Positions 10,701 through 57,253 of a stretch of 64,000 bases of DNA are shown here, one piece after another. The position numbers and the translations under genes were made by a program. How positions within the stretch are numbered: position 1 is the first letter of the stretch; the number at the start of each line of letters is the position of its first letter. The notes beneath the pieces are model-generated. The model worked only from the letters and a program-made list of their open reading frames with translations. It was not told the DNA's origin and searched no databases. The stretch spans positions 22,895,603 through 22,959,602 of the forward strand of contig NC_087072.1 of assembly GCF_026151205.1 (NCBI RefSeq), in the 5' to 3' direction. The DNA is from Bolinopsis microptera (taxonomy: Eukaryota > Ctenophora > Tentaculata > Lobata > Bolinopsidae).

Positions 10701-13700
10701 AACGTTCGTCATAAACATCTTTTTCGGTCCTGGTAGTTTTATCACGTCGAACTTGAAGCACAGTAGAAGAGCACTGCTCATGAAGAATCCGATAAAACCT
10801 ATCCCAGTCAAGCAGCTGCCGTTGACAAGAACAAACGTGCAATCTTGATAAGAACAGGTTGTGTTCTTGATGTTGAATCCCATCCTATCTTACAAGTCGA
10901 AAGACTGAAAACATGATATTATATTATCTTCTATTTGTTTTTAAATAATATATTCGAGTTCTAGTCACAATGAGAAATGTCTACACGAAAAATTATTAAG
11001 AAATTAATCTACTGTGATAATTTGATCATGAACCACTATAGTTAAATATACTATAATATAGCACTCCTGTCTGTCTATCAATAGTAGAAGTTAGAAAGAC
11101 ATCGCGAGTAGGGGTTTATACACACGATGGGTGAGATCCAGTGTTACGCCCTTCCTTGCTGGGCCGTGACTAAGGTCTACCACAGGGATGGCAGCTATAG
11201 TGTCCAATGAACCATACAAAACAAGTAGAGTTCTCAACACCATACAATGAGATTTACAGTACTATGGGGGTCAGGAAGTGGCAGCCCTCAGGTTCCACTA
11301 AATAAGGAGAAACGGGGGACTGCCTTTCAACTGTGCACTGAAGTAAGCTCATAGCTGTATGCTTTCTACCCTCAAATTACAATAGAGTAACTCGTATGGT
11401 GTAATTACGCAAACCTCCATTTACCGCGGCTTTTTCCTTTCTCCCAAACTGCGCGGTTAATCGGGGTATTACTGTAGTTGTTTGAATGAAAAGTTCCACT
11501 TAATGACCAATGACCATGTGAAAACTGCAGAAATTGTACGGAGGCTCTTAGTACTCAGTAATCAGTATGCGTATTTTCCCAGATCTTGAAATTGAAGCTC
11601 ACTTTGTTAGCTTAAACGGAAAAATAACGGAAAAACTCATGTTAAACAATACCTGGCAGTAATTGGTAATGAATGGCGTTCCTCTTGTTGCTGATATTAA
11701 ATGTAGGCGGTGTTTGGTAGTCTAGCCAGTAGACGTATGAGCTTGCGTGGTATTTAAAGCCAGCAATCTCAAAAGTCAAGGATAGAATACAAGTTGCTCG
11801 GTGAAGAACAAAAGGTCGCATTATTTTCAATTTTGTTGATCATATTATATTGGCAAAATTGGTTCCCATGGCCATGGAAATGAGACAGTGGTTTGTTGTA
11901 TCAAATATTAAATCCGCGCAGGTGTATCACTACATATACGGACGAGTCAGGCCTGTTCTCAACGGAGCCTCTTGAGGATGTTGTGGAGGCAGCACCTGAG
12001 GCCACGGTTAGCGAGACTACAGAAGCTCCCAAGGACACAGAAATGGAAGAAGAGCTGGATGAGGATGCTCTTTTGTACGGAGACTCTGATAAACTGTTTG
12101 AGGGATTCAAGAGCAAGCGGAAACCATTCTCGGAAGAGAAACCAACCAAGACCAAGGTATGTAACACCAAAACAAATATAAGTCGGCAAAGATTAAAACT
12201 TATGGGACGAAATCGATTTTTAAAAAATAACTGCGCCTTTAACCGTTTGATAAATATCGGTTTTATATTCCAGGCTACAAAACCAGAAGATAGGGGACCT
12301 CTGATGGTAGCCCAGTTTCACAACGCGACACATTGGTGTATTCTAACGCGAGATGACGGGGTCCTGGAGATACGCTCTCTTCCTTCCTGGAACCTGCACT
12401 ACTTCTGTAAAAACTTTGCTATGAGTCCCAAGGTAGGTTGTACGCAGTGTAACAATTTATAGCAACAATACAAATATGTTATATATAATTATCTTGAGCG
12501 ACATAAGGATCATGGTCGACTAACCATCAGCTGCTTTGTTAATGCTATCCAGGTTTATTTTTTATTTGGCTTTTAAATTAAAGAACAAGGCTACTCATTA
12601 TGTTTGATGAATCAAAGTCAACAATGTTGCAATTACGAAATAAAAGCGTTCGCTTGTTCACAATTTAGCATCGACAAGTTGTCACGGAATGAGCGGTTGA
12701 GATTGTAATCTATATCATATTATTATTATTAACCGCGCCTATATTTAAATGTTTTTGATTCATTTAGTTGAGGGCAAAACGATGGTAACAAGTATGTTTA
12801 TCGGCGAGAAATTGGTGATTTGCAACAGTGACTTGAAGGTTAGCTATGCCTAATAGGCCCTAATTTAAGATAACTCGCAAATAACTGCTTCTTAAAAGAC
12901 TACCAAGATTAAAGCTGCCTAAGTCCATATGCAGCTTGATAAGGTGAGTGGTGACAATTGCATTGTTGCCTAACCGCTTGTCACAAGGATTTAACACGTA
13001 AAACGTATTATGATCGTTTTAAGAGACAAAACATTGGCACAAATAAAATGTAGCATAAAAACACATAACACAGATACGAGGTTAGCCTCATTGAGCCCCT
13101 ACTAAACCGGTGTAACGTTCACAAGTTAAGTGTTTCCATGTGCTAAAATACTGAGTTAATTACAGGTACAACCTTTCTTATAGATGTGGAATGTGAATCC
13201 TGGTGGGGAAGTGTTTATTGACACGTGACCAGCCCCTCTTACAGGGGCCGGGCCAGTGAGTCAGAGAAGGGGTCATCGGGAGTCTTATTTTGGTATATCC
13301 TGCAATCGATATTAATTTATAGTCTGTAATTAATACCGACTGTTAGACGATAAATAAAACTATATAACCCCTCTGTTGCAGACGTTAGCAGACAGTGAAG
13401 ATCATCACCCGAGTGTAGGAAGTGAGGGTATACCCGGTGTTAAAGAGATATGTGTCGTTGGACTCGGATGGCAGCGTCAGAGACCATACCTTCTCACTCT
13501 CATTGATGATGACTTCTTCATCTACTCAGCTTTTCCATACAATACTTCGAGTAAGACATTTCAAAGATTTTAGTTTTGTTATTATGTTTTTAGTATATGA
13601 AACGGCTTCAACTGTCCTTTATTCCTGGCAATTTAAAATGATAATTAATATCTACTGTATTCTACGGTCTCGGACTGACGTATCAAATTATTCGCTGTTT

Positions 13701-29930: not shown

Positions 29931-31070
29931 ATGAGCCACTCTAATAGTAATCTTACCATGAAGATGGACACGCTCATTTTCAAAGGAGTCTTCTTCAGCC
30001 TATCCCCGGTTAATATCACTCTGGGTATCGTGGTGGTGGTACATAACATAATCATCTTTGGAAACTACTACAAGGACAAAACCAAATTAATAGCCGGTTT
30101 ATTCATGGGTATCGCTATGGCGGACATTCTGAAAGCACAAGGAGAAATTGTAATGGCAGTAGTGAGTATTCTGGTTAATATGGGACTGGTTGGACAAGAA
30201 GCTCTGTATAAGAGCTTGCTTTACTACATGGTCACTGCTCTACCTGGGGTCAACTGGTCTAAGCTCTTCAATCTAGCCATGACCGTCACCCTGACTGTCA
30301 AACTCGTGAAACCATTCGACAGAATTAACACTTCGCGTCTAAAGATAGTCCTTGCTCTCTGCTGTGCAGTTATAACCTTGCTGCACATCTCAGACATGGT
30401 GGCAATCTTGGTGTTTTTCGAAAGTAATATTCCTCTTGCTTTCATCACCAAGGTTTTTCGCTATCTCGTTGAAGGTTTCAACTTCCCGGGACTGCCCACC
30501 ATAGTTGCGGTGCTTTGCATGCCAGACCAGAATGGAGTATCAAAATGTGCCAGGTCTAATAACAAAATAGAACTCCAAAGCAAGTACAATTGCTTGTTGT
30601 ACATATATGTTATTTTTTACTTCATTTGCATCCCCCTTGTTGTCCTTATCTGCATGATAATTCAGATAAGATATTTGAAGGGGATGCTCCAACAAAATTC
30701 AACCTCTTCATCTATCTCCAGCACAGCCAATCATGTTACAGTCACTGTCTTTTGGGTGTCTGTCCTTTTCTTTTTGTGCAATGCAGCTTACTTCCTGCTG
30801 GTGATGGTTTGGCACCATTTTGACCACATTGATTACGTCCACAGTGACCGGTTTTGGGTGAATGTTGGGATTGTGTTTGGGTTGGCAGAGTTTACACTCC
30901 CCCTGATGTATGCGTTGATCTACCCAATCATTCTGATAAGTAGAAAACCGGAGCTGAGAGAAAGATACGTCGGGTACTGGAGAAGGATCACCAGCTGCTG
31001 TGGACTGAGATGTCTCAACAACAGTAGCACTGAGGGTACTGGAGAAGGATCACCAGCTGCTGTGGATTGA
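29931..31070 (+). CDS. Highly divergent intronless seven-transmembrane receptor (379 aa)
   Basis: Seven hydrophobic segments can be placed near residues 27-45, 53-83, 95-125, 137-163, 222-247, 270-294 and 309-336, so it should be a plasma-membrane receptor. Most family marks are weak. TM1 has HN (39-40) instead of GN. TM2 keeps ADIL (D65). TM3 ends in LTVKLVKPF where DRY is expected. TM7 reads MYALIYP instead of NPxxY. A 30-residue loop after TM4 contains two cysteines (C196, C206). A sequon lies at N7 near the N terminus. From residue 349 to the end the protein is encoded by a 62-bp tandem repeat read in two successive frames. The ligand is unknown. It could be a rhodopsin-like chemoreceptor of a lineage-specific expansion, which is an inference. 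Confidence 0.75.
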   Translation: MSHSNSNLTMKMDTLIFKGVFFSLSPVNITLGIVVVVHNIIIFGNYYKDKTKLIAGLFMGIAMADILKAQGEIVMAVVSILVNMGLVGQEALYKSLLYYMVTALPGVNWSKLFNLAMTVTLTVKLVKPFDRINTSRLKIVLALCCAVITLLHISDMVAILVFFESNIPLAFITKVFRYLVEGFNFPGLPTIVAVLCMPDQNGVSKCARSNNKIELQSKYNCLLYIYVIFYFICIPLVVLICMIIQIRYLKGMLQQNSTSSSISSTANHVTVTVFWVSVLFFLCNAAYFLLVMVWHHFDHIDYVHSDRFWVNVGIVFGLAEFTLPLMYALIYPIILISRKPELRERYVGYWRRITSCCGLRCLNNSSTEGTGEGSPAAVD

Positions 31071-35392: not shown

Positions 35393-38300
35393 CTGTAATA
35401 TTATGTTTCAAACTAATTACAACACTACAAATCTATTACATTTATTGAGGTATGAGATATGATAGACGAGCGTAAGTGTTGACGTGCAAAGGACTGCTGT
35501 GAGTGTACTTGAAGATTACTCATCCTCCTCCTTCTCATCAAAACTATTCTCATCAAAACTACTATCTGGACTGAAGGTATTGCGTTTACAGTGTTTATTG
35601 TGCTTCTGAACATTGAACTCTTGATAATATAACTATGTCAAATAATCAGAGCTCAGACATTAGTCTCCACTTTTGTGAGCGCCCTTTAGAACATTTGAAC
35701 TTTTCATTCCAGTCTGAAAAATCAGAGAACTGTAACAATTGTCTGTCAAAAGACATCAAGATTGACTTTTTAGAAAAAAAGTTGTCTTTATTGAATGAAA
35801 TTATCAGAACTAGTGATCTCATTGCTCAGTACAATGATAGTCTCATATCAGATCAAATTCAAATACAAGAACAGAGTTTTAAGTGTGAAAATTTGCTGCC
35901 GAACTTATCAGAGGAGATTGAATGTGAGATCATAACCATTACCCCTCAGTCACACGTTGTTATCAATCAAGTAGAAGCGTTTGATGTAGATGACATTGTT
36001 GTGGAAGATGTTGTATCGGACAGTTTGTTTGTTGACAACAATGTCGTGGACAAGGTTGTTCCACAGGAGGTTGTTGGAAACGAGATTGTTATCAGTGAGA
36101 TTGTTGTTAACGAGGTTATGGCAGACGAGGATGATGTGTCTGATCTCCCTGTATCTACTGCTACTGGTGAATCACGGATCAACACCCCTAAGCCCAGAGA
36201 CAAATATCCAAACTTGGTCCCTGCCCCTGTCTACGATCCTATAACACCGGGGCCAATGAATATATCTGTAACTTGTTCCCCATCACCAGTGAAACCAGTT
36301 ACCCTACTAGATGATGGTCCATTCTCTAAATTTTCACTTGATCTATTAATGGAAGAACTTGAGTTCAGTCACGGTTTTAAAAACAGGAAATCGGTTTATT
36401 TTGGTGACTTTCCCTATGAGTATTCAGGTGCAACACATGACCCAAAAAGTGTACACAATGATTCCTACCTTGCTAAACTCAGCTCCTACATTAATGTGAT
36501 ATTACCCAATTTCAGACACAATAGTATTCTCGTCAATCTATATGAAACTGGAGCAGAGTTCATGCCAGCTCATAGCGATTCTGAATCATGTATTGTAGAA
36601 CACTCTGATATTGTAACCATTTCACTTGGTGCGACGAGAACACTGCAAATTAGATCAAACGGCAGCAATGAAGTTGTGGGCTCTGTGCAGCTTCAGCATG
36701 GAGATGTCTTCATCATGTCCAAATTGTCTCAGGCTGACTTTCAACATGAGATACTGCCAGACGAAATGTGTGATGAACCCCGGATCAGCATCACCCTAAG
36801 ACTGATGAAGCCCCCTAGGATCACTCAGTCAACTGAGTTTGGTCTGCGTTCACCGCCCCCACCCATCCCTCATTCAGGACACAAACTGACAGACTCTTCT
36901 TCACCTGCACTCTCAGTTTGCAAACAGCCAGCCAAAGCTTCACAAAAGTCTGTCCTATTCATAAGCAGCTCTATGTTCAGGTTTCTTGATGCGGACAAGT
37001 TATCATCGTCCACTGTTAGTGCTAGTAAACTGTTTTATCCTGGGGCTGATGCCAAAGTAATGTTAAATAAACTAAAAACTGACCTACACTCCGTTCCATC
37101 CCCATCTATTATTTATATTATGACAGGAACTAATAATGTGAACACAGTCTATTTTGGCTCAAAGTCACTGAAGGATGCAGCGGGTGACATTAGTAATCTC
37201 TTAAATTATCTCAAGTCAGTGTATCCGAATGCAACAATTAATGTTCTCAATATTCTTCCCAGGAGTACAAAAGGCCGCAATGATGTTGTGGCAGAGCTGA
37301 ATAAGGTTATTAAGGATATGTGTAGCAAAGATTCTTGTTTTAATTACATTAGCACCCATAATTTATTTAACTATAATAGAAGTGGATTCAGGAAAGAATT
37401 TTATTTTGCCAGACCATCTGCAAAAATATCTGATAACTGTCACCTCAATACAAGCGGTGTTATTCGACTTGCTAAATTTCTGAAGTATTGGGCCCATAAG
37501 CAAGTTTGAATTTTCAGAAAGATTGTTAACATTTATTTCATCTAGATTCTAGATAAGGGATAATTACACATTGTTCCTCATGTTTATTGAAGTTTTAGAA
37601 AGTTTTGTTATTATCTCATACAAATTTGCCAGTTCTGCAATTTATCTTATTCTGACAAGTTTATAGCAGCATAAATTGGAAAAATTTTCATGCTCTCACA
37701 GCAGTTCTTGCATTAACCCGTGCATTAGTAAAATCACAGTTTCATACCATGCCAAAAAGCTTGCAGTGGGACATTGCAACATGCAGGGAGGACTAACAGG
37801 TATGCCAAAATGTCTTGAAATCCAAGATCTAATCTGGAAAGAGAAATTAGATGTTTTATGCCTGAATGAAACAAATCTTAAGTCGGATATTGACTCAGCC
37901 AGTCTAAACCTACCCAAGAATTTTACTTTTATCCGCAAAGACCGTCCTAACGACAATGGTCATGGGGGATGTGGCATTCTCATCAGTGAGCACATAAAGT
38001 TTAAAATGATTCAACTAAACTTAGTTTTGCAATATGACCAAATCGAGGCTATTTGGATCCATCTTACAGATTGCAATATTTTCATCTGCTGTTTCTACAG
38101 ATCTGAGTTGTTTAGTCCTCTTGACAAATTTTTAGATTATATGACAGACTGCATGATGAGTATAGGAAGTAAGAATGTTATTTGGCTGGGTGATGTAAAT
38201 GTAGACCAAAACAACATCAGCAGTATGAACTATAAGAAATTAGACATTACAATGAAAATGTTTGGAATGGTACAGGTAGTTCAGGATATTACCCGCATTG

Positions 38301-41300
38301 CTAAACTAGGAAACAGAATCACAAAGACCACAATCGATGTTGTCATAACAAACACTTACTCCAAGTTTCTTGACTGCAAAGTCCTTGATGATTGTATAGG
38401 AGATCATCAGGTCGTAAAGTTCATTGTCGATTTCAATGTGCATAAGGCCTCAAAATTCAAGAAGTTACTAATAAGAGATCACAGCAAAATGAATGTTACT
38501 GCTCTTAAAGAATTTTTGGAAACCTGTGATTATAGACCAATAATAGATTCAACTAGTCTGAATGATGCAGTTGATGGTTTAAACGAACATATTGATCACT
38601 ACTATGATCACTTCTGTCCAATTAAACAAATTAAGTGCCATAGTGATTACATCCATAAGCCATCTCCAGAATTTTTAGAAAGTAAGAAATTGAAAGGGAA
38701 ACTTTACCGTAAATTTTTAACACACAACAAGAACAGACGTATACATCCAAATGGTGTTATACACTGTAATAAATGTGACTCATTATGGATGGCATATAAA
38801 CGGCAGAGAAACTATTCAACCTATTTGTCTAGAATTAATAGGAAGACTAACTTAGCAACAGAACTGAAAGCCAAGTGTGCCATGAATGATCTAAAGGGTG
38901 TATGGAAAACGATAAAGACAGCATCAAATCTGCCTGTTAAAGCTAACAATATCAATAACAACCTTGATGCTGAAACCACCAATAAATATTTTGCTGAAAT
39001 AGGTCCAAAGATCCAAGCAGAAGTGCAGCTGGAAAATGAAAATGAATTTCTATCTTATCTACAAAATGAGCAGATTGACAACGAGACCAGCTTGAATAGC
39101 TTTACTGAAATAACTGAGTCCAATATCTTAGACTATGTGGCAAGTATCCCTTGTAGCAAATCCACTAATGATCATATACCATTGAGAGTGTTTAGACAAA
39201 TTTTACCTGCATTTATTGCTCCATTAACACATCTTGTAAATTTGAGTTTATCCAGTGGCATCATGCCAAACAGCTGCAAGGTTGCAAAAGTCACCCCAAT
39301 CCATAAGGATGGTGATACTGAGAATCCTAGTAATTATCGACCAATCTCAATTTTACCGATTCTTGGAAAGTGCATCGAATTTTGTGTGAACTCCCAACTG
39401 ACTCAATATCTTGATGAAAAGGGAATACTTTCAGAGCATCAATATGGTTTCCGTAAAGATCACTCTACAACTTATCTCATGTTAGATCTGTTTGATCGTA
39501 TATTTACTGCTAAGAACAGTGCCAAGCATCCTGCAATTATCTTCCTGGACATCAGAAAGGCATTTGATACTGTTAACCATGATATTCTCATTCAAAAGCT
39601 GAAGCATTATGGAATAAAAGATACTGCATTGAGCTGGTTTAGGAGCTTCCTCACAGATAGATTACAGCAAACTAGAGTTGGGAGTAGGATAAGCAGTTTA
39701 CATTCATTGAACTCTGGAGTGCCTCAAGGAAGTATATTAGGACCAATTCTATTCAGCATTTTTATCAATGACCTGCCTAATGCATGCCTATTTTCTAAAC
39801 CTTATCTATTTGCTGATGACGGTGCATTATATTTTGACAATATATCTAGAGGAAACTATGGTAACATCAAACAAGAGTTGAAATTAGTTATCAGATGGCT
39901 TCAGGCTAATAAACTATCCCTGAATAATGAAAAAACAAAACTAATGATCCTTGACTCTAAGCCTAACCTTGATGCCATCCTTGTTGAAATTTGTGATGAC
40001 CTTACTTTGGTAATCTGTGAAACTAAATCCCATAAGTACCTTGGACTTATAGTTGACAGCAGATTGACATTTAATGAACATATTGATAACATTAAGAAAA
40101 AGATATCCAAAAGAATTGGTGCTATGTATAGATCAAAAAAACTTCTCCCTCTTAAGTTCAGGAAGATGTTTGCTAATGCACTTATGTTGCCACATTTTGA
40201 CTACTTAGACACCATCTGGTCAAGAACATATAAAAAACGACTAGGAGAGTTAGATATCATGTACAAAAAGGTTGCTAAAATAGCCCTAGATGTAAACATC
40301 AGAGAGAGGTCGGTTAATGTATACAAAAATATGGGATGGCTTCCTCTCCATTTGAGACGACAGGTTCATCTTAGCTCATATATGTACCGTATAATCAATG
40401 AAACATGTCCAAAGCATTTTATCGGGAAATTCTCGTATATTTCTGGTGGATCACGTGAGGCAGAAAACTGCAATCTTTATACTCCTAAATCAAGATCTCA
40501 CAAGGAGTTTAACTATCTAGGAACTAAGGCCTGGAACATATTACCAAAGTCCCTTAGAGAGTGTGACGACGTTAAGAAATTTTCTAAGTTATACAAAGAA
40601 ACTCTTATGAATATGTTGCTAACTGATGAGAATTACCAAGGGGATAACTCTTACGATAAATTCATGATCCCACCCAACACTAGCCAATGTATCTAGGCAG
40701 TTATGTTATTTCGGTTAAGTTATCTCAGTACATAAGTGAATCCAATCTATCCCCTGCAATCAAAGTATTTCCATGCCTATTAAGCTATTACAGGAAATTA
40801 GGAACATCAGTGGAAAGGTGCACTGTCAATCATTATTGCTCCATACCTCCAGTCCTCCTGTTATGTGCAATTCTCACTGTATGCTCCTCATTTGTATCAA
40901 TTATATTGATGCTACATTGTTATTGAATATGAAATAATTTTCAACCGTATTAATTTATTAACTTATTGTAAATAGCAAGTTTGACAAAGGGATTACGTTT
41001 ATTTTACCCGGAGTTCGTTTAAGTTTAGTATTGTAAATAGTTAATTTGACGAAGGGAATACGTCTATTTTACCCTGAGTTATGTTTTAGTTCAATCTTGA
41101 CACAATTTTAAAATTATAATTTAATTATTTTATATATATGTATTGTCCATAACTAGGGTGGCCTGCTAACAGAACCATGATCTGCCTTGATTCATCCTTC
41201 AGCACAGAGAAAAGCTCCTTTTTTTATACATTATGATTACAGAGGATCTGATATTTAGATATATATTGCTGTGCTGTAAAAATTGACTTTATTTATTTAT

Positions 41301-44300
41301 TTATTTATTTACTAAAGTTAGTGACATTAAATGTTTTTTCTGAACGCCCTTGAATCACGTCATCGCAAATCGATTTTTTAAAAGGAAACTGCGATAAATG
41401 AGATCATACATATTACATACCTGACAACATTTTCGAGGCATTTCAAAATGTAATCTTGAACTGGTCGTTCTGTTTTATGAGTCTGTAAGATCGGTAACAT
41501 CCACGTGAACCACACTGAAAAGGTCTGATTAATATAAACGTTTATTTGGTCAATAAAATCCAGAATGTTTTTATTTGGCGATTTTCAGGGGCATTTTTCA
41601 AATTTTCATACCATTTTGAATCCGTTTACTTATGCCACATCATGAATGACGCGAATAAGAAAACGCGCGATCACGCCGCGCGAATAACCGATACCATTCA
41701 CTATATTGATTTAAATCGCGCCATCCAACTCTCGCAATCTTTAGTAGACTCATATCTGAGATGGATTAGCCTGGATCTTGTAGAGTGTCGAAATAGAGCA
41801 AAGTGTGATTTCATCACAGATAAGATAAAATAATACGTTGCATCATAATTAACAACTTTTATCATCTTGTGTTTTTCATCGAGTCACTACATAAAGTGGA
41901 ACTCCAAAGTTCGATCGCGTTCGAATAAAAAAATTAAAATCAACACTTCGAAAGTCACGTACCTTTGAGTTTAGTGTCGAGTTTATTCCTCGGTACCATC
42001 TGAAGACACCAGAGCATGGCGACACACTCTTTAGTCCTGGCTACACTGTCTGTTATCAGGTGCTGTAGCTTGTTGGTGACCTCTTTACTGTGCACAGTCT
42101 TAGGACAACTGTGTGCCATGCATTGGAGTAGTATTCTGTGATGGTACCCACACGCTCCTGCAAATATTGAACCTTAGTGGAAGTTCATATTGACCTCATT
42201 TCTGAGGAAATTACCATCGAACGATATCTAACTAACATGCTTTAAAGTTAAAGTAAATCGGGATTTTACTGTATTAATTTAATAATGTTTGTGTGTACGA
42301 TCCTGTTTAATAATAAATAATAATAAGTGCGTCATAGAAAATAAAGAGAGAGAACGAGATATGAGAGTGAGCATTTTTAGATGTTTCCAGAAAGTTTTCG
42401 TATGTTCCAAAACGAGGAATCAAGAACGGCTCTAGAAGTGCCAATTCCTTAATCCACGTGTCAAGTTATCCTCTGCAATAACTTAACATTAACTTAATAT
42501 CAAAAATATGACCTAATCATCTTGTCGATATATAATATGAAATTAAGCAGCCACTTCATTCCACCTCTTTATGCCAAACTTTTTGCAGCGTAAATAATTA
42601 AAATAGTAAGCCATTGTGTAAATGTATTATTAAATGTACTATTATTATCACAATCTAAACAGATATTATTGAGCTTGCTAGTTGTAAACAAAAGATACAT
42701 ACATCATCATCATTTATATGTAGCAGATGTGCTATTTTTAGTTAACGCATAATTAGCCACTATCCTGACAAAAAGTTGTCGCCTGCAAAACATAATATAC
42801 CGGTTCTAAAATCACATATTTAGCGATCTTTCTCTTGCCTTTAAGTCCACAAGGCTCCCTCCATACCATATGGGCGACTGGTTTGAGTGGTACCACTTTG
42901 GGTGGCTGCAATCCTCTGTGTTGATGTACTGGTGTTGCCCTTAAGTAATTGTCTTAATTTGACTTGACGTGGCACTGTACCATACCATGGCTGTGAACCT
43001 CAACCAAGGGTTCATTTCAGAAGCCGTAGCTTATGTTTTGGTCAGGGGAATCACTCCATTTTCTGTAACAAACACTAGGTTCATCTATCACATTATCTGA
43101 GCACTCATTAAGATGGTATTCGGAAGCCCGACTCGCTAATCTCACTAAAGTGTGAAACAGTACATCTTGATTGATGAATGGTAATCACGATAACGCGTGG
43201 ATTCAACCCTTAACTTAAAACCACCGAAAAATTAATTTAATCTTGCCGTATCACATGTTGCACTTGAAACAAACATTAGTGTAAAAACCGTACACTTCTA
43301 TTTATCTGAAAACTTAATTGTAATTCGGGGTACCAACTTCCAAGAAAGAAGATGAGGCAAGGAAGGGCAAAGATAACAGGTCCAACCCGGATATCCCACA
43401 TAGAATCAATGTAAACAGTAGGTAAACATATCATCAAAATTATATGACAAATGAACCAATCTTTATAGTCTAATTTATGAGGGTTTGTAAGACACGTCCT
43501 CAGCCAGTCGGGGAAAAGTGTCAGAAATATGTCTGTCAATTACTGTACACCATACGGGATTCTGTCATCACCCGTATAATAATATGTTATTACACACGGA
43601 GAGTTATGCGATCCTAGCTAACTAATCAGTACTAAGCACTGGGTTCTGAGAATAGCAGTTTTGGATCTACATTTTTAAGATACGGTTTGGAAAGATATCA
43701 GTTGGAATGATATCAGGTTTGTCGCAGGATCACGATTTTGTTATAAGTCATAGCTAATTTGTTGCATCTGAAAATTGCAGGATATGTTTAGCATAGAACT
43801 TGTGACAAGAAGTTTTATATTACACGAAGTATTTCTATCCTTATAAGGCCTGATTATCATGTGATCCATGAAACTGCCTGTTAATTATGTGTGACCTCTA
43901 CACTGATACACAGTACATAGTACAGAAGTTTAGGACAGACCTTTATCACACGAAATTCTCAGTGATCGCGAGATTTAATTAATATGTGATCTTGCTCAAT
44001 TTTTCCGTCAAATTCGAGTGCACGAGTATCATTCTAAAGTCTGAACCTATTTTCAAATTATGAAAACGATATCTCAATCGATATCCTTTCAGGTGCCTAA
44101 AACAACGCCAAAGCAATTACATAAGTATGATGACGTATGATGTACAAGAGGGTTCAAATAAGATTTGGGTGTTATGTATTCGAAGCAGCACCTGGTCGTC
44201 ACTCAGTCATAAGGATCGTGTATATTGATTAGGGAGGTTCAACATATCAAAATGTCGCCAAATTATTATGGGCCCGGCCACATCCATATTAATATTATTG

Positions 44301-47365: not shown

Positions 47366-50314
47366 TCATTTCTTCCCGTGTCCATGCAAATTTGGGGCAG
47401 AAATCTTAACTTTACCAGGAATATTTACGGTCATATCAACATCTTTCAAACTCTTGAACACATTCTTTTCTTGTAACAAAGCATTTTTGTCTCTAGTGAA
47501 CATATCTAGAATGGTCTTACATGCTTTCCCCTTCTTAGTTGCACCAGGTGTCAATTTCACTCTGTATTTACAAGACGACATGGAATTGTATGGAGCAACA
47601 AAAGGAATTCCAAATAAAATAGTGTCTGAAGGTAATGGGTTGCGTACAAGAGAATCGAGAATGTCAATGGGCTCATCCTCGTTATCACTTAAGTCAATTT
47701 CTAATGTTGGAGCAGGTTTCGATGGCTGTACTTTGGGTTGAACATCTTCAGTGCCCATAGTTTTTGCAACATTTTCTTTATCAGTGTTGTCAGGTTCATT
47801 GGCTTCTTTTTTTACTTCTACAATTTCATCTTCTTCTTCTTTTAAGTCTTTGGTCAATGTTTGCAATACCCTGTCTGCTTCACTAAGCTTTACTTTCTCA
47901 ACTTCCCCTTTGTATCCTGCAACAACATTTTTGGCAGTCGATGTAGCTCGGTACTTCAATTTAGAGTTACTAGACCCAGTCTTACCCTTGCCTTTTTTAT
48001 TACCAGCTGACCCTAATAAAGCCATCATTGCCTCTCTCTCGTCATCGCTCTGGTCTTCATACTTCTCCATTCTCTTTTTCTTCCCCTTCTGCCCTCTTTT
48101 AGGCCGGTTATCACACTTCTTTGGTTCAGAAACATTTTTTCCATGAGATGGTTTCTTTGGTTCTTGTTTCTTCTTGTAAGAAGGATTGTGGGCAGTTCCA
48201 ACGAATTCAGTGAATTCAGACTGCTCTATTTCTGGTTCCGGCACTGCCGATATGTGAAGATTGTATTTATCAAACAGTTCCTCAAGAACATCCTCATCAC
48301 CTTTATTGATCAATGTATTTTCATTCGCATCACTATCAGGATCAGATTGTTCTAGTTCAAGATCTGCTTCTTCTGGCACATCAGTCTCCAATTTGGCTTC
48401 AATTTTAATCTCAACTTTGTCGTTGTTATGGAAAGATGGCTCCTGAGAAACTTTTCTTCTTTCTTCCACACTTTCATCATCGATTTTGAATAGCACAGAA
48501 AAGCCAAGAATGTGTTGTGCTGGGGGGAGGTAATTTTTCTTTCCTCTTATCATGAAACTTCCAGTGGTTAAGTACTCTCCAGTTGGGGCAGTTTTAGAAA
48601 CCTGCTCAGCATGAACCCAGTATGCACTTGTAACAATCTTGTTATTCCATGCTGAACTTTGGCAAAGAGCAAAACATCCTGCTTCCATCATGGTTTTTGG
48701 TGGTAGTGGATCACTTGACTTGTTCTTAACAATGATCGATGTGGCACCATGAATATCAGCATGAACATATGAATCATTTTTCTTGAGATATTTCTTTACC
48801 AAAATTTCGTTCTGTGTGGCATCCCTACCACCTATAATTATGTAACCTTCTGAACTTATAAACCACAAAAACTTCTCAAACCAAAGCATCTTTCTTGCCT
48901 TTTTTATTGATGCTACAATATTTATATCTTTTATTGTTGCCTGAGTTTTCTTTTCAGCATTCTTCAGAGCAACAGCAGATGACTGGATTGTCTTTTCCTC
49001 TTTTACAGCAGACTGTTTCACCTGGTCAAAATACTGTTTAGCATTGCTGTAAGCACCCATAGCCAAATCTATGTCAACATCAACAGCAACCACCTCTTCT
49101 TCGAATGGATCTTTAAGTGACATAGTCATTTTGTTGTTCTGTAAGTTTATTTTTCTTATTGCCAGAGCTGCTTGGTGATTACTTTCTTTACCCTCTTGAA
49201 CCAGTTCATCTATCTCTTCCCAGGACAGACGATTAGCAACCAGATTTTGAATGGTATTAATCGCTTCTTCAACACATTCTAGGTTAACTTCTATCAAATA
49301 AGCTTTGTTGGCTGAATCTTCTTGCACGTTTTTCAAGACTTTTATTCTATTTTCATGATCAGTTTTGATATTCTCTAACTTTTTCATGACATTCTTTTCT
49401 TTCTGCACTGATTTTATTTCAATCTTCTGGGTCTCCTGTTCATAGAAAAATACATCAATAGCATCATTGTATGATGGAAACTCCTTCGATTCCATTGATG
49501 TGCACTGATCAAACACAATTGGATGAAATTCGTCCATTACTGAATCAGTGGCACTGCTTTTAACCTTTTTGAAGAATATGAATCCACTCTTTAATGTCAA
49601 CGGAAGAGAACTAAACTTGCAGTGTGCAACTTCCATTGATTTTTGAATTTGGGAAAGATTGTCCAAGACACTACTTTCATTGATTTTCTCGTTAGCATCC
49701 ATACCATTTTCTCTCAAACAATGTTCTATGAGGGGAATGCTATATGGAAACATGAAATTAAGCCACCGCTTAAGCTGTGTGTTGGGTTTAATGTCACTTG
49801 TATTACTGTTCATAATTTCCATGTTTGGACTTGTTAAAGTCTGACAAACTTCAAAAGGATAGAAATGACCAACTGCATATCTGATATCCTCCTTTTCATC
49901 TTCTCTTGTCCTTAATATAGCAGTGATCATATACTGATCGTTACAAAGACATATGTTTCCTTTGTCATAAAGTTCAATAATTAAATGGGAAGAAAACTCT
50001 TCACTTCCAAACTTCAGATCTACAATTCTATCACAACCAATTTGAGAGACACTTGTTAACCTCTTGTTCCTCATAACTTTTCTACATTTAGCCGAAAATG
50101 GGGAAGGTATCATTTGTTTTGGCCATTCAAAGGCAGTCAAATGAATTCTAGAACCTGATTCTATATACAACATCGATTTCACCTCTTGTCCAAACTTGAT
50201 GATATATGATTTGTTGTTTATGTCGTAGACATTGATAACACGCAGATCTTGAACTTTTGATTTAAGTTCGCTGACAATGCATGCAACATCGAAGGAGTTA
50301 AACTTGATCTTCAT
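47366..50314 (-). CDS. NEMF: NEMF, ribosome-associated quality control factor (single exon, 982 aa)
   Basis: NEMF (Rqc2/Tae2 in yeast, RqcH in bacteria) binds stalled 60S subunits with peptidyl-tRNA, recruits the Listerin ubiquitin ligase and directs C-terminal tailing. The N-terminal NFACT-N domain matches from residue 1, with VINVYDINNKSYIIK and the functional Asp-Arg pair at D95-R96. Coiled-coil arms occupy about 300-470. The NFACT-R domain follows, with WFISSEGYIIIGGRDA (about 495) and DIHGATS (about 520). Next come an acidic region, a Lys-rich stretch (KRGQKGKKKRMEKY), ERE-MMALLGSAG and a C-terminal NFACT-C domain with LFGIPFVAPY. Vertebrate NEMF is 1076 aa and spread over many introns; here the whole coding region is one exon. 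The start codon gives exactly the family N terminus. Confidence 0.95.
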   Translation of the reverse strand: MKIKFNSFDVACIVSELKSKVQDLRVINVYDINNKSYIIKFGQEVKSMLYIESGSRIHLTAFEWPKQMIPSPFSAKCRKVMRNKRLTSVSQIGCDRIVDLKFGSEEFSSHLIIELYDKGNICLCNDQYMITAILRTREDEKEDIRYAVGHFYPFEVCQTLTSPNMEIMNSNTSDIKPNTQLKRWLNFMFPYSIPLIEHCLRENGMDANEKINESSVLDNLSQIQKSMEVAHCKFSSLPLTLKSGFIFFKKVKSSATDSVMDEFHPIVFDQCTSMESKEFPSYNDAIDVFFYEQETQKIEIKSVQKEKNVMKKLENIKTDHENRIKVLKNVQEDSANKAYLIEVNLECVEEAINTIQNLVANRLSWEEIDELVQEGKESNHQAALAIRKINLQNNKMTMSLKDPFEEEVVAVDVDIDLAMGAYSNAKQYFDQVKQSAVKEEKTIQSSAVALKNAEKKTQATIKDINIVASIKKARKMLWFEKFLWFISSEGYIIIGGRDATQNEILVKKYLKKNDSYVHADIHGATSIIVKNKSSDPLPPKTMMEAGCFALCQSSAWNNKIVTSAYWVHAEQVSKTAPTGEYLTTGSFMIRGKKNYLPPAQHILGFSVLFKIDDESVEERRKVSQEPSFHNNDKVEIKIEAKLETDVPEEADLELEQSDPDSDANENTLINKGDEDVLEELFDKYNLHISAVPEPEIEQSEFTEFVGTAHNPSYKKKQEPKKPSHGKNVSEPKKCDNRPKRGQKGKKKRMEKYEDQSDDEREAMMALLGSAGNKKGKGKTGSSNSKLKYRATSTAKNVVAGYKGEVEKVKLSEADRVLQTLTKDLKEEEDEIVEVKKEANEPDNTDKENVAKTMGTEDVQPKVQPSKPAPTLEIDLSDNEDEPIDILDSLVRNPLPSDTILFGIPFVAPYNSMSSCKYRVKLTPGATKKGKACKTILDMFTRDKNALLQEKNVFKSLKDVDMTVNIPGKVKISAPNLHGHGKK

Positions 50315-52656: not shown

Positions 52657-53790
52657 ATGGGGGAAGACAAAGTCCCTAGGTTAACAGATACAACGTGTTA
52701 TGGGGATTGGAAGAGAAGGGTTACTGTATGGGAAGTCTCAACGAGCACAACTAAGAACAAGAGAGCAGCTACCCTTATAACGTGTATGAGCGGTAGACCA
52801 GAGCAGGCTGCTATCCAACTCAAAATCGACGATTTGAAAGGAGAAGATGGAGTAAAGAAACTGATAGCAGAAATGGACAAACTGTTCCTACCAGACAATA
52901 CCCAGCAAGTGTTTAACGCTTTGGATGCTTTTTTGGAGTATAAAAGACCAGCTGATCTATCTATGGAAGACTACTGCAGGGAGTTTCACTACAAGAAGAA
53001 AATAGCAGAACAGATGAGCGACAAGACAGACATGTTTGATGATGGTGTCCTTGGCTATTTCCTACTCAAGAACAGTGGTCTTGAACAGAACAGTATGACC
53101 TTAATTAGAGCTACAGTGACGAAGCTCGAGCTCAGTTTGGTGGAAGGAGCTTTGAAGAGAACGTTTGGAACAGGACTATCAGGTACGCTGATGGGTTCTT
53201 CGGGACTGGGAACATCAGCTATGTCGATTAAACAAGAAGTGATGTACAATCGACACTCTTCAAGCGAGACTGATCAGTCAGGGGACTGTTCCTCAAGAAA
53301 TGCATCTACATCGCTCACTAGTTCAGATGAGGCAGAGAACGAGACCTTCTACAACAAAGACTCAAAATCGTATGGAAACAGAGGATCATACCATGGTTAT
53401 AAGGCAGGAAACAGTTTCAGCTCAAGAGGTAACTACAGAGGTAACTACAGCGGTGACTACAGAGGCAGAGGTAATTACCAAGGGAACTACAGCAACAGAG
53501 GAGGCAGATACGGCAGCAGAGGGGGTTCCAACTTCAGGGGAAGAGGAAAGTACAGTGTCCAGAACAACCAGCAGAACAACAGGAAGGATCAGAACTTTGT
53601 TTGTTTCTGGTGCGGGGGTGAAGGACATAAGATTGCAGACTGTCCCAAGAGACTAGCTGAGAAGTCTACGCAATACTTCCAGTCCTTGCTAACGTCCAAA
53701 ACAGTGAGACTTTCTTGTGCCATAAGACCTACAACGGTGCCTTGTTGGATTCAGGCGCTAGTGCTACAGTTTGTGGGGAACAGTGGATGA
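52657..53790 (+). CDS. gag: Copia gag (nucleocapsid-like, 377 aa)
   Basis: The ATG at 52657 follows the primer-binding site closely. The N-terminal two thirds match the Copia gag helical region in pattern (CYGDWKRRV, LDAFLEYKR, EDYCREFHYKK). A Gly/Arg/Tyr-rich stretch of RGNYRG and RGGR repeats follows (about residues 255-305), then a CCHC zinc knuckle, CFWCGGEGHKIADC (about 319-332). The last ~35 codons overlap the protease frame, so the functional gag probably ends earlier and the protease is reached by a -1 frame change between about 53640 and 53700. Confidence 0.88.
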   Translation: MGEDKVPRLTDTTCYGDWKRRVTVWEVSTSTTKNKRAATLITCMSGRPEQAAIQLKIDDLKGEDGVKKLIAEMDKLFLPDNTQQVFNALDAFLEYKRPADLSMEDYCREFHYKKKIAEQMSDKTDMFDDGVLGYFLLKNSGLEQNSMTLIRATVTKLELSLVEGALKRTFGTGLSGTLMGSSGLGTSAMSIKQEVMYNRHSSSETDQSGDCSSRNASTSLTSSDEAENETFYNKDSKSYGNRGSYHGYKAGNSFSSRGNYRGNYSGDYRGRGNYQGNYSNRGGRYGSRGGSNFRGRGKYSVQNNQQNNRKDQNFVCFWCGGEGHKIADCPKRLAEKSTQYFQSLLTSKTVRLSCAIRPTTVPCWIQALVLQFVGNSG

Positions 53791-54017
53791 CGAAGTTTGA
53801 GTATTCACTGACGACTAGGGAGAAGAAACTGGTGCAAGAAGAGCCGTGTCATCAAGTGTTCAGATTTGGTGACAGTGACCCCATCATATGTACGACGAGG
53901 AAGAACATACCCATAACCATCTGTGGGAATGATATCATGCTATGGACATACGTTGTGGAGAGTGACGTACCTTACTCTTGTCCAGAACAACTATGTCAAA
54001 GATGGGCTGTCAGATAG
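53640..54017 (+). CDS. Copia aspartic protease segment, in its own frame
   Basis: The open frame contains GALLDSGASATVCG, the DSG active-site triad of retroviral-type aspartic proteases, and a DIMLWTYVVESDVPY strand. It lies -1 relative to gag and is followed by a further -1 change near 53970-53985 before the integrase frame (LSRTTMSKMG continues it). One shift could be the natural gag-pol shift. The second looks like a one-base deletion. So this copy may be defective despite its young LTRs, or the base may be an assembly error. Confidence 0.8.
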
Positions 54018-57000
54018 ATTTCCAGAGGAGCGAAATCAAGGTATTTGGACGGACAAAGAAGCTTGTTATAACAGATTCTGGTCACATGATTATCCCCTTC
54101 GAAGCCAGAAAAGTGATCAAGTGTGATGAACCAGAACCAAGCCCAAAGACTAAGCCAGCTTCAACTGATCAAGCATCATACATTGTAGATTTGGAGAATA
54201 GTAAAAAGACGGCAGAACATCTACACAAGTATTTTGCCCACGGATCTGCTAACAAGATCAAAGAAGTTGTGTTAGAGTCAAGCTTGGAGAAGAAGAGCGA
54301 AGTGTGCAAAGAGCTTGATCTTATAGAAAAATCTTGTGATCAATGCCTGAGACACAAGAGTAAGAAGATACCGCATAGAAAAGTTGCTCTACCTGCAGGG
54401 AAAGCTTTCAACGAAAGAGTTGCGATGGATCTAAAGATGCTTGAGTCTGGGGATACTATTTTGCACATGATCGATTGTGTAACCCGATATGCAATGGCGA
54501 TCAGTGTAAAGAGCAAAACAGCTACTGAAATACTGGAGAAAATATTCAGAGTCTGGATCTCAGTATTTGGAAGACCTGGTCAGTTCTTAACTGACAACGG
54601 AGGAGAGTTTGTCAATCAAGAGTTTAACGAGATGTGCCAACTACTTGACATCGTTATCTCCACTAGTCCTGCAGAATCACCTTTCTGTAACGGTATGGTT
54701 GAGCGCCATAATGGCATCCTGGGAAAGATGATAGACTCAACTATGGGAGACACAGGATGTAGCTTGGAAACTGCGATTTCCTGGTCTGTAAATGCCAAGA
54801 ACACACTGACTAACGTGCAAGGATTCTCCCCAAGTCAGCTAGTGTTCGGCTACAATCCTAGCAACAGCAGCTTACTTGATGAAAGACTGAAGCTATCAGT
54901 CCTTAAGACTGAAACTACAAGCAAGTTGGTAGCTAATATGATAAACGCCAGGGATACAGCAAGAAAGAAGTTTGTACAACTTGAGAACACCAGCACCATC
55001 AAGAAAGCTCTTACTGAACGTGTGTATGCAGGGAGGAATAAACAGTATAAGAATGGAGATAATGTTTATTTCAAACGTGAGAAAAGCAAGTCATGGCAAG
55101 GACCTGCTGTGGTAGTTGGACAGATTGACAACATAATTGTTATCAAGCATGGGGGACTGCTATATCGTGTCCATCCTTGCAAGATAATAGAGAAGCACGA
55201 GGCTGACAGTCAGATTAATGGGGATGCAGAAGAAGGAAAATCTGATCAGTTGGAGGAGCCTGACACAGCAGCTGTCAAACGAATGCTATCAACACTGGAT
55301 AGTGATGCAGATCCAGATTCTGATAGCAACTACGACATCCTTGAACCCAGTGACTTGGTTCAAGAGCTGGAAGAAGACGAGATTCAAAGACCCTCGGAAG
55401 AACAGAGTCAGGTGGGAGTTGGAGGACAAAAACCCTCTGAAAAGCAGAATCAGACGGGAGTTGGAGTTCCCAGAATGAGCCAGAACGCTGCTAAGCCTAA
55501 TACAGGAAGTACACCTTCGCAATCCAGCGGATGGAAGCCTGTGCCAACTTCTAACGGAAAGTTGAAACTGAAGAAAGATGATGTGATACGGTACAAGAAT
55601 AGTAATGAAGAAGAATGGAAAAATGGTATCATCATCGGCAGAGCTGGTAAGGCTACTGGGAAGATGAAGAACGAGTTTAACATCTTGACAGAAGATATAG
55701 AAGACCCAGAACCCATACTGCTTGATAAAGTTGAGGTTGAGGTACAAGGTACCTACCACCTTGTAACGGATGTTGAAAAGGACGACCCAGCTCTCATCAA
55801 GGCTAAAGAGGAGGAGATCAAGAGATTTCAAGAATTCGACGTGTTTGTTGAAGTTAAAGACCATGGACAAACCAGTGTAACGTCTAGGTGGGTCATAACT
55901 TCAAAAGGAGATGGAAAGTACAAGGCAAGACTAGTTGCCAGAGGATTCCAAGAAGAACTTAACGGACAGTCCGATGCTCCGACTGTGAATAAAATTAGTA
56001 AGAGGCTCATGTTCACAGTTGCTGCATGCCGAAAATGGGAAGTAAAGAGTTTAGATGTAACAAGTGCTTTTCTCCAAGCAGATGAACTCGACAGGGAGAT
56101 TTTTGTCAAACCACCAACTGACATAAGGAGAAAAGGCATTGTTTGGAAGCTAAAGAAACCACTTTACGGTTTGGGTGATAGTGCTAGAAGATGGTATCTA
56201 ACTTTAAGAGATAGACTCATAGAGGCTGGATGTGTTATCTCAGTTCTAGATCAGTCAGTATTCAGGTACTATGATGAGAGGAATAGTTTGTGTGGTATCA
56301 TAGTAACCCACGTTGATGATCTACTGTATGCTGGGAACACCAAGTTCCAGAGAGAGATTATGAGAAAAGTACTGTCATCCTTCAAGATATCAAGAATGAA
56401 CGGAAAAGATTTCACATACCTTGGATGGTCAATAACTCAAGAAGATGGTTACATATCTGTGAATCAGCGAGAATACTGCAAGTCCATTGAACCTGTAACT
56501 GTCAACTCAAAATCGCCTAAAGACAGTGAGCGTTTCTTGAATGATTCAGAGAAGACCAAATATCAAGAAACATTGGGGAAGTTGTTATGGCTAAGTAGTC
56601 AAACCAGACCTGACCTCAGCTATGACACGATGGAACTGTCGACCTACACAAGTTCAGCTAAAGTCAAACACCTCAGTATTCTTAACAAGGTCGTTAAGAA
56701 AGTTAACTATGGACCCCAAGAGATCAAATATACCGAAATGGATATTGATCAAGGTGAACTGCAAGTAATATTCTACTCAGATGCCAGTTTGGGTAACCTG
56801 CCCAACAAGATAGACAGTGGGAGAGGCTATCTAGTCTTTATATCTGATGGAAGGCGAGCTTCACTTGTTGCCTGGTCTAGTAACAAGATCAAGAGGGTAG
56901 TTCACTCTGTGTTTGGAGCAGAAACTTTGGGATGTGTAGATGGTTGTTCAGCAGCCATTTATGTCAGACAACTGATATCAGAGATACTCTACGATGATCC

Positions 57001-57253
57001 TACAAAGGCAGTCATACCTATTGTTGGATATGTGGATTCCAATCAGCTTTACCAACAGGTTACATCTACAAAACAGTGTCTAGACATGAGAATGAGGCTA
57101 GACATAGCTGGTATCAGACAGACAGTGAAATCAGGAGAAGTTCAAGCTATCAAGTGGATTCCTACTAAAGAGATGCTTGCTGATTGTCTCACAAAGAAGA
57201 ACGCAGACTGCAGTAAACTGAAGATCACTCTTGAGAGAGGAAGATTCTGTTGA
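53978..57253 (+). CDS. pol: Copia pol: integrase, reverse transcriptase, RNase H (1091 aa open frame)
   Basis: The start is the edge of the open frame, not a natural start. The integrase has the HHCC zinc site (HLHKYFAHG ... CDQCLRH) and the DDE core with MDLKM, TDNGGEF (about 203-209) and the Glu in NGMVERHNG. A variable acidic linker (about 410-560) follows. The reverse transcriptase has SRWVITSKGDG, KARLVARGFQ, LDVTSAFLQA, KPLYGL and the catalytic HVDDLLYAG (about 776). RNase H has FYSDASLG, GAETLG and the terminal LADCLTKK. No stop interrupts it, so the enzymes appear intact. Confidence 0.93.
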   Translation: MSRTTMSKMGCQIDFQRSEIKVFGRTKKLVITDSGHMIIPFEARKVIKCDEPEPSPKTKPASTDQASYIVDLENSKKTAEHLHKYFAHGSANKIKEVVLESSLEKKSEVCKELDLIEKSCDQCLRHKSKKIPHRKVALPAGKAFNERVAMDLKMLESGDTILHMIDCVTRYAMAISVKSKTATEILEKIFRVWISVFGRPGQFLTDNGGEFVNQEFNEMCQLLDIVISTSPAESPFCNGMVERHNGILGKMIDSTMGDTGCSLETAISWSVNAKNTLTNVQGFSPSQLVFGYNPSNSSLLDERLKLSVLKTETTSKLVANMINARDTARKKFVQLENTSTIKKALTERVYAGRNKQYKNGDNVYFKREKSKSWQGPAVVVGQIDNIIVIKHGGLLYRVHPCKIIEKHEADSQINGDAEEGKSDQLEEPDTAAVKRMLSTLDSDADPDSDSNYDILEPSDLVQELEEDEIQRPSEEQSQVGVGGQKPSEKQNQTGVGVPRMSQNAAKPNTGSTPSQSSGWKPVPTSNGKLKLKKDDVIRYKNSNEEEWKNGIIIGRAGKATGKMKNEFNILTEDIEDPEPILLDKVEVEVQGTYHLVTDVEKDDPALIKAKEEEIKRFQEFDVFVEVKDHGQTSVTSRWVITSKGDGKYKARLVARGFQEELNGQSDAPTVNKISKRLMFTVAACRKWEVKSLDVTSAFLQADELDREIFVKPPTDIRRKGIVWKLKKPLYGLGDSARRWYLTLRDRLIEAGCVISVLDQSVFRYYDERNSLCGIIVTHVDDLLYAGNTKFQREIMRKVLSSFKISRMNGKDFTYLGWSITQEDGYISVNQREYCKSIEPVTVNSKSPKDSERFLNDSEKTKYQETLGKLLWLSSQTRPDLSYDTMELSTYTSSAKVKHLSILNKVVKKVNYGPQEIKYTEMDIDQGELQVIFYSDASLGNLPNKIDSGRGYLVFISDGRRASLVAWSSNKIKRVVHSVFGAETLGCVDGCSAAIYVRQLISEILYDDPTKAVIPIVGYVDSNQLYQQVTSTKQCLDMRMRLDIAGIRQTVKSGEVQAIKWIPTKEMLADCLTKKNADCSKLKITLERGRFC

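Follow-up and report, generated by a model that had tools for sequence, protein, structure and literature searches.

An ORF1 of a ctenophore LINE that joins an ALKBH2/3-like dioxygenase domain to an SGNH hydrolase-like domain

A non-LTR retrotransposon located in a stretch of 64,000 nucleotides of the Bolinopsis microptera genome (contig NC_087072.1, positions 22,895,603 to 22,959,602; this whole stretch is called the window) encodes, in its first open reading frame (ORF1), an AlkB-type Fe(II)/2-oxoglutarate (2OG) dioxygenase domain followed by an SGNH domain. The structural identity of this fusion, in which the dioxygenase is ALKBH2/3-like, can be held with very high confidence. The presence of AlkB and esterase domains in one LINE ORF1 appears to be what is new, since esterase-bearing ORF1s and an AlkB-bearing retrotransposon are already known, and priority is not claimed. 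The best explanation of the observations as a whole is a recently active LINE whose ORF1 protein (ORF1p) has an N-terminus that presumably multimerises, followed by the ALKBH2/3-like dioxygenase and the SGNH domain, and takes part in template repair; it is advanced tentatively, as close to an even call. The template-repair mechanism in particular is a prediction and is possible rather than probable.

The element and the domains of its ORF1

The preliminary description of the window, made from its sequence alone, placed an ORF1 carrying both domains in a LINE; this reading frame, of 624 aa, is present as described (Table 1), and an ORF2 with endonuclease (EN) and reverse transcriptase (RT) follows it on the same strand. 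In a comparison of seven copies, the 5' end of the element lies at about 35412, beginning AAACTAATTACAAC, and the tail ends at 41311. ORF2 matches RVT_1 with E = 6.3e-37 and Exo_endo_phos with 1.9e-4 (21.7 bits, below the cut-off of 24.5), all the endonuclease matches in Pfam being under their cut-offs, and it contains the EN/RT motifs NET, GDVN, GDH, GVPQGS, and FADD. The element is thus a LINE by its EN- and RT-bearing ORF2, its tandem-repeat 3' tail, and its many dispersed copies; it is presumably of the CR1/L2 clades (Jockey superfamily), to judge by the look of the RT and of the tail. LINEs of the CR1 and L2 clades end in a short tandem-repeat 3' tail, as the window element does. The search for target-site duplications showed no clear ones: words of 6–7 bp are shared in six of the seven copies, some of them overlapping the tail, and no 5' anchor word turned up in the remaining copy, L034. 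Two family A copies, L032 and L033, have different first ~40 bp ahead of the common 5' untranslated region. By eye, the window element seemingly lies within a host gene on the minus strand, in one of its introns.

Table 1. Features of the window, numbered from its first nucleotide
Feature	Position	Strand	Basis or remark
Whole non-LTR element, full length, about 5.9 kb	35412..41311	+	Limits common to the window copy and six others
5' untranslated region, 223 bp	35412..35634	+	
ORF1, 624 aa from ATG: N-terminal C-x2-C and leucine-rich segment, AlkB domain, linker, SGNH domain	35635..37509	+	
C33-x2-C36 and leucine-rich, presumed coiled-coil segment	35731..35829	+	Coiled coil judged by eye
AlkB-type Fe(II)/2OG dioxygenase domain, residues 226-393	36310..36813	+	Pfam, PDB sequences, model and fold
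H313-S-D315-S-E317, iron ligands and following acid	36571..36585	+	
H371, third iron ligand	36745..36747	+	
R383-x5-R389, 2OG-binding arginine motif	36781..36801	+	
SGNH hydrolase-like domain, residues 438-624; S446, G470, N500, D600, H603	36946..37506	+	Weak Pfam, SGNH structures
ORF2, endonuclease and reverse transcriptase	37676..40696	+	RVT_1, Exo_endo_phos, motifs
3' untranslated region	40697..41287	+	
(TTTA)n 3' tail	41288..41311	+	
NEMF/NFACT-type protein, 982 aa, single uninterrupted frame	47366-50314	-	
Copia-like element: zinc-knuckle ORF, then integrase and RVT_2	52657-57253	+	Zinc knuckle just below Pfam cut-off
ORF2 of a second LINE	60405-63302	-	25% identical to the ORF2 of the AlkB LINE
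7-transmembrane receptor-like single-frame ORFs	7590-8822; 9924-10883; 29931-31070	+; -; +	Two clear, one below Pfam cut-off

The AlkB signature H313-x-D315, H371, and R383-x5-R389 stands where it had been read in the sequence, and Pfam family PF13532 (2OG-FeII_Oxy_2) gives a match with E = 3.6e-18 that spans residues 261-389 and scores 66.9 bits, the cut-off being 31.2. When ORF1 was used as a single-sequence query against PDB sequences, human ALKBH3 was the best match (8.7e-15), followed by ALKBH2 (1.9e-6) and E. coli AlkB (0.003). A first, single-sequence model of the domain had a pLDDT of 41.3 and was set aside; the second model was obtained from the window domain together with 56 bacterial AlkBs, picked from 78 clean sequences of 80 loci (a stop excluded L083 and L097, the record names excluded L095 and L126, and others were cut for brevity). 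The comparison with AlkB/ALKBH structures that had been proposed as a check finds the double-stranded beta-helix AlkB fold in this predicted model; ALKBH2 and ALKBH3 structures with DNA account for many of the top fold matches, and the identity to human ALKBH3/ALKBH2 is 22-32% in the Foldseek alignments. The H, D, and E of HxDxE are invariant between the window domain and the 56 bacterial AlkBs, among which R389 is nearly invariant. The nearest solved relatives are ALKBH2/3, with HxDxE present, and neither of the m6A erasers ALKBH5 and FTO was nearest in the sequence and fold comparisons; by sequence and predicted fold, the domain is ALKBH2/3-like and not ALKBH5-like. Viral contigs scanned with ORF1, ORF2, and the AlkB alignment gave 6, 1, and 35 pattern matches, respectively, and genome contigs scanned with the AlkB alignment gave 29, with no relatives among any of them; the best phage and plasmid matches are 34-35% identical, and the annotated ones are AlkB dioxygenases.

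The SGNH-like layout (S444-446, GTNN, D600-x2-H603) is likewise found at the positions first reported, with a weaker domain match: two GDSL/SGNH Pfam families match within residues 477-614, each under its cut-off, and Lipase_GDSL_2 reaches 8.6e-5 (23.5 bits, below the cut-off of 32.9). The same family is matched, again under the cut-off, by three related ORF1 families of this genome (B, C, and D, with 25.9, 26.9, and 18.3 bits; the window copy belongs to family A). The profile of the four families matches the SGNH structure 2hsj with E = 4.6e-5, and the ZfL2-1 ORF1 esterase structure 4c1b is matched at 0.085 by the single-sequence ORF1 query. The catalytic S, G, N, and D-x2-H are all present, S446, G470, N500, D600, and H603 being invariant across the four families, and their order, compared by eye, is that of S143, G165, N195, D279, and H282 of ZfL2-1, as given in the available part of PMC3905857. 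At the N-terminus, C33, C36, L46, and L53 are invariant in the alignment of the four families.

Copies, selection, and exchange of ORF1 types

The genome searched comprises 264,652,675 bases in 232 contigs. The ORF1 query gave 81 matches, with the best 71 of 991 candidates scored, and the same fusion, whose other copies the preliminary description had suggested looking for, recurs in four families. In family A at least 23 copies, window copy included, cover at least 577 residues at about 98-100% identity; family B has at least 14 matches at 41-44% identity with open frames of 608-619 aa; at least 13 matches, mostly of family C, have 50-53% identity over the AlkB part; and family D has at least five at 36-37% with frames of 537-539 aa. 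One of the mostly C-type matches, L047, starts like L042 of family B. The ORF2 query gave 47 matches, with the best 46 of 6573 candidates scored: at least 45 at 94-100% identity, of which two belong to a single copy and 35 are stop-free, and two at 56%. Because of the near-identity of its copies, seven of which, the window copy among them, are 99.3-99.9% identical over shared limits, the element looks recently active.

The iron- and 2OG-binding positions, whose comparison across copies had also been proposed, are intact throughout: H313, D315, E317, H371, R383, and R389 are kept in all 30 family A loci, the window copy being one of them, and in each of the 15 ORFs retrieved from families B, C, and D. 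The five SGNH residues are kept wherever a family A copy reaches them (27 of the 30 reach the last two) and in all 13 of the other ORFs that do so. Both sets of catalytic residues are invariant in the four-family alignment, in which ORF1 identity between families is about 33-43%.

The proposed dN/dS comparison could be carried through in part. Between families the AlkB pN is 0.19-0.47 and the synonymous sites are near or beyond saturation in most pairs, so that no dN/dS ratio is quoted; AlkB pN equals that of ORF2 for the A/B and A/C pairs (0.30 and 0.30) and exceeds it in pairs with family D (0.45-0.47 above 0.33-0.35). Within family A, variants were counted in 18 of 20 copies (L005 and L007 were dropped by the offset rule): 9 are synonymous and 2 non-synonymous in the AlkB domain, whereas the other parts of ORF1 together have 19 and 32 (N-terminus 9/16, linker 2/4, SGNH 8/12), a bias towards synonymous change with a Fisher p of 0.016 against the rest of ORF1 and of 0.057 against SGNH alone. 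In family B (seven of the eight fetched ORFs, without L042) the bias is absent, with 2 synonymous and 4 non-synonymous AlkB variants; the counts are 5/1 in family C (three of five C-type sequences, without L047 and L048) and 1/2 in the two copies of family D, with few sites. Given the conservation between families and the sparse counts within them, selection on the AlkB domain is, at the sequence level, well supported over long times and suggestively indicated over short times.

A stretch of 3465 bp that starts 18 bp ahead of ORF2 and runs 3' is 98.2% identical between families B and C, and the ORF2 proteins of the two families are 98.6% identical; in the ORF1 regions of B and C the first 1.2 kb and one 106-bp piece match at no more than about 70%, and no nucleotide match between them was found in the remaining SGNH part. 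A natural exchange of ORF1 between almost identical ORF2 backbones is therefore clear. Swapped ORF1 types on near-identical backbones were observed at L040/L045 and probably occur at D-type loci, the B/C break falling just ahead of ORF2. The family D ORF2 used as a query gave at least 46 matches at 97-100% identity, with the best 46 of 6561 candidates scored, and four of the five D-type ORF1s sit 109 bp upstream of such an ORF2. A second AlkB type is represented by 27 hits chosen from the PF13532 matches by frame length (mostly about 551 aa, 332-552) and profile range; 15 of them lie 866-868 bp upstream of an ORF2 that is 97-98% identical to that of family D, and 12 are without a listed ORF2. 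Conversely, 27 of the 46 listed D-like ORF2s are without a listed AlkB in front, which truncation or the scoring of the best candidates alone may explain. A second exchange, involving the 551-aa ORF1 type and the D-like ORF2, is thus probable.

Origin of the AlkB domain and its breadth in the genome

In a tree of 26 AlkB domains, 15 bacterial ones among them, several branches are long; the LINE families A-D, with L051 and L053, form one side of a branch supported at 97/92, and the ALKBH2 and ALKBH3 groups lie on the other. The 234-aa ORF L054 joins human ALKBH2 at 100/99 and the 296-aa ORF L055 joins human ALKBH3 at 91/88; accordingly, ALKBH2 and ALKBH3 are probably both retained as genes of the host, and the LINE domains do not look like recent copies of either. 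Recent capture from the host ALKBH2 or ALKBH3 was considered and is not supported by this tree. The LINE AlkBs were not placed inside the ALKBH2 or the ALKBH3 clade among the 26 domains and, because of this position and of the long branches, they are filed as working like these enzymes and not as members of their clades. The join of family D with L053 may be false, and finer placing is unsafe given the branch lengths.

The PF13532 profile gave 151 matches, with the best 150 of 587 candidates scored; the listed matches are all above the cut-off and, except for the last, stop-free, with open frames of many sizes, classes of 593, 676, 707, 777, and over 3000 aa among them, and at least two (L054 and L055) are probably host genes. 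Since the best candidates alone were scored, the window copy is not on this list and the true number is larger. Outside families A-D, 333-aa pieces of L051, L052, and L053 match AlkB in Pfam at 1.6e-22, 4.5e-23, and 1.2e-19, and no SGNH Pfam match was found in these pieces; by eye, L053 continues into an apparent SGNH start. The AlkB of L052 (C7:5566000-5567000) belongs to a 777-aa frame and stands, on a long branch, outside the LINE group and beside cellular and bacterial AlkBs; given this position, AlkB in repeated ORFs may have a second origin, represented by L052.

When the lists were compared by eye, 12 of the 150 listed SGNH matches adjoin a listed AlkB, four in the order AlkB-SGNH and eight in the order SGNH-AlkB. 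The latter order, the reverse of that in the window, was seen in frames of 2459-3321 aa (C3:14441692-14443593, C9:15866686-15868581, C12:2468326-2469981, and others). Many SGNH-bearing frames of 478-525 aa, with recurring sizes, were also noticed; they are likely other esterase-type ORF1s.

Possible role of the domain and comparison with known systems

According to the mechanism that is proposed here, ORF1p, probably multimeric through its N-terminus, would coat the element RNA in a ribonucleoprotein particle (RNP), where the AlkB domain would oxidatively strip marks or damage of the N1-methyladenine (m1A) and N3-methylcytosine (m3C) type from the RNA or, alternatively, act on first-strand cDNA or the opened target; the cleaned template would let the element's own RT read through about 6 kb, and the SGNH part would bind lipid or membrane, like its counterpart in the ORF1p of zebrafish ZfL2-1. 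A LINE has to reverse-transcribe about 6 kb of a single RNA at its target, so that cleaning the template could be worthwhile. The acid of HxDxE takes part in base reading; owing to this signature and to the nearest relatives, m1A and m3C are favoured over m6A as targets, a substrate class that is read from similarity. The suggestion in the preliminary description of a captured demethylase guarding the RNA may thus hold for m1A/m3C-type marks and is disfavoured for m6A. RNA is less certain as the substrate because ALKBH2 uses the same fold and signature in DNA repair.

In the available part of PMC12140624, m1A and m3C hinder reverse transcription by commonly used RTs, and the R2-derived RT of OTTR is affected by m1A, with cloning still possible; AlkB treatment removes m1A and m3C and boosts the capture of most 3' tRNA halves, the changes for intact tRNAs being modest. 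As that RT copies m1A-bearing tRNAs without AlkB and the changes are modest, the gain for the LINE RT may be small. The esterase-type ORF1ps of RepBase are described, in the part of PMC3905857 drawn upon, as devoid of any RNA-binding structural domain; a domain that acts on nucleic acids could make up for this lack. In a wider form, which is proposed no more firmly than the mechanism itself, an old and self-sustained AlkB module of ORF1 would repair the RNA template inside the RNP, AlkB ORF1 types would be cassettes exchangeable among ORF2 backbones, the module would have spread to other ORF architectures, including the reverse-order giant ORFs, and ALKBH2/3-type demethylation would be a general aid to retroelement replication in this animal lineage.

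Among the other explanations, the action of the AlkB domain on DNA at insertion, where it would rid the nicked target or the first strand of cDNA of alkyl lesions, would accord with the ALKBH2/ALKBH3 structures with DNA among the fold matches; it is held to be unlikely, since no observation in this analysis links the domain with the target site and ORF1 proteins are viewed mainly as RNA packagers in the available part of PMC3905857. Improbable to a further degree is an m6A eraser hiding the element RNA from epitranscriptomic control by the host, as suggested for orchid Ty3/Gypsy elements: an AlkB-bearing LTR retrotransposon with m6A demethylase activity in vitro does exist (PMC9289625, in part), but its domain is ALKBH5-like, while that of the LINE is ALKBH2/3-like by sequence and fold, and for L1 in human cells m6A is a promoting factor and ALKBH5 a suppressor (PMC7873242, in part). 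No better placed is the retention of AlkB as a nucleic-acid-binding scaffold with incidental catalysis, which would suit esterase-type ORF1ps otherwise lacking a known RNA-binding domain (PMC3905857, in part); however, all the iron and 2OG residues are kept at about 33-43% ORF1 identity, and binding alone would not need that. A chance match is ruled out by the copies, Pfam, and the tree, and so is an ALKBH gene of the host, or a capture by chance, adjoining a LINE, which has no more in its favour than adjacency in one copy: the same ORF1 occurs in at least 23 near-full copies, related ORF1s occur in other LINE families, and the LINE AlkBs stand apart from what are probably this genome's own ALKBH2 and ALKBH3.

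If the template-repair reading is correct, a conserved nucleic-acid demethylase would give the poorly understood LINE ORF1p an enzymatic job, and template quality would become a testable limit on retrotransposition. No LINE with AlkB was found among the best matches in the openly licensed PubMed Central literature, the search being confined to this and Repbase lying outside it, and AlkB is absent from the available parts of the ORF1-type survey PMC4120745 and of PMC3905857.

The closest architecture is that of the LINEs with type IV ORF1 of the CR1/L2 clades, such as zebrafish ZfL2-1, which share with the window element two ORFs, an N-terminal multimerising segment (here presumed), a linker, and a C-terminal SGNH domain; unlike ORF1s of the ZfL2-1 type, the window ORF1 has AlkB between the N-terminus and SGNH. 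In the portions of the sources used here, a 2014 survey found the esterase-bearing type IV ORF1 in only two vertebrate subgroups (PMC4120745), transposon esterases of chordates, cnidarians, and sponges are aligned, and the ZfL2-1 esterase binds phospholipids and not oligo(A) RNA (both PMC3905857). With human ALKBH3 and ALKBH2 the domain shares the fold, HxDxE, the third His, and R-x5-R; unlike them, it is encoded by a mobile element, belongs to a multidomain protein, and groups with neither in the tree. Orchid Ty3/Gypsy elements (sister to Ogre, within Tat) are also retrotransposons encoding an AlkB-family enzyme, an ALKBH5-like ORF2 active in vitro (PMC9289625, in part); in that case it is a separate ORF of ALKBH5 type in an LTR element of a plant, whereas here it is an ALKBH2/3-like domain fused with SGNH in the ORF1 of an animal LINE. 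AlkB domains occur in plant RNA viruses (Alphaflexi-, Betaflexi-, and Closteroviridae), for which RNA repair was proposed, as told in the available part of PMC9289625; likened by description alone, these are RNA-based replicators with AlkB, carried there in a virus protein and here in a LINE ORF1, and, if the template-repair reading holds, retroelements and AlkB-bearing RNA viruses would be linked through a common need.
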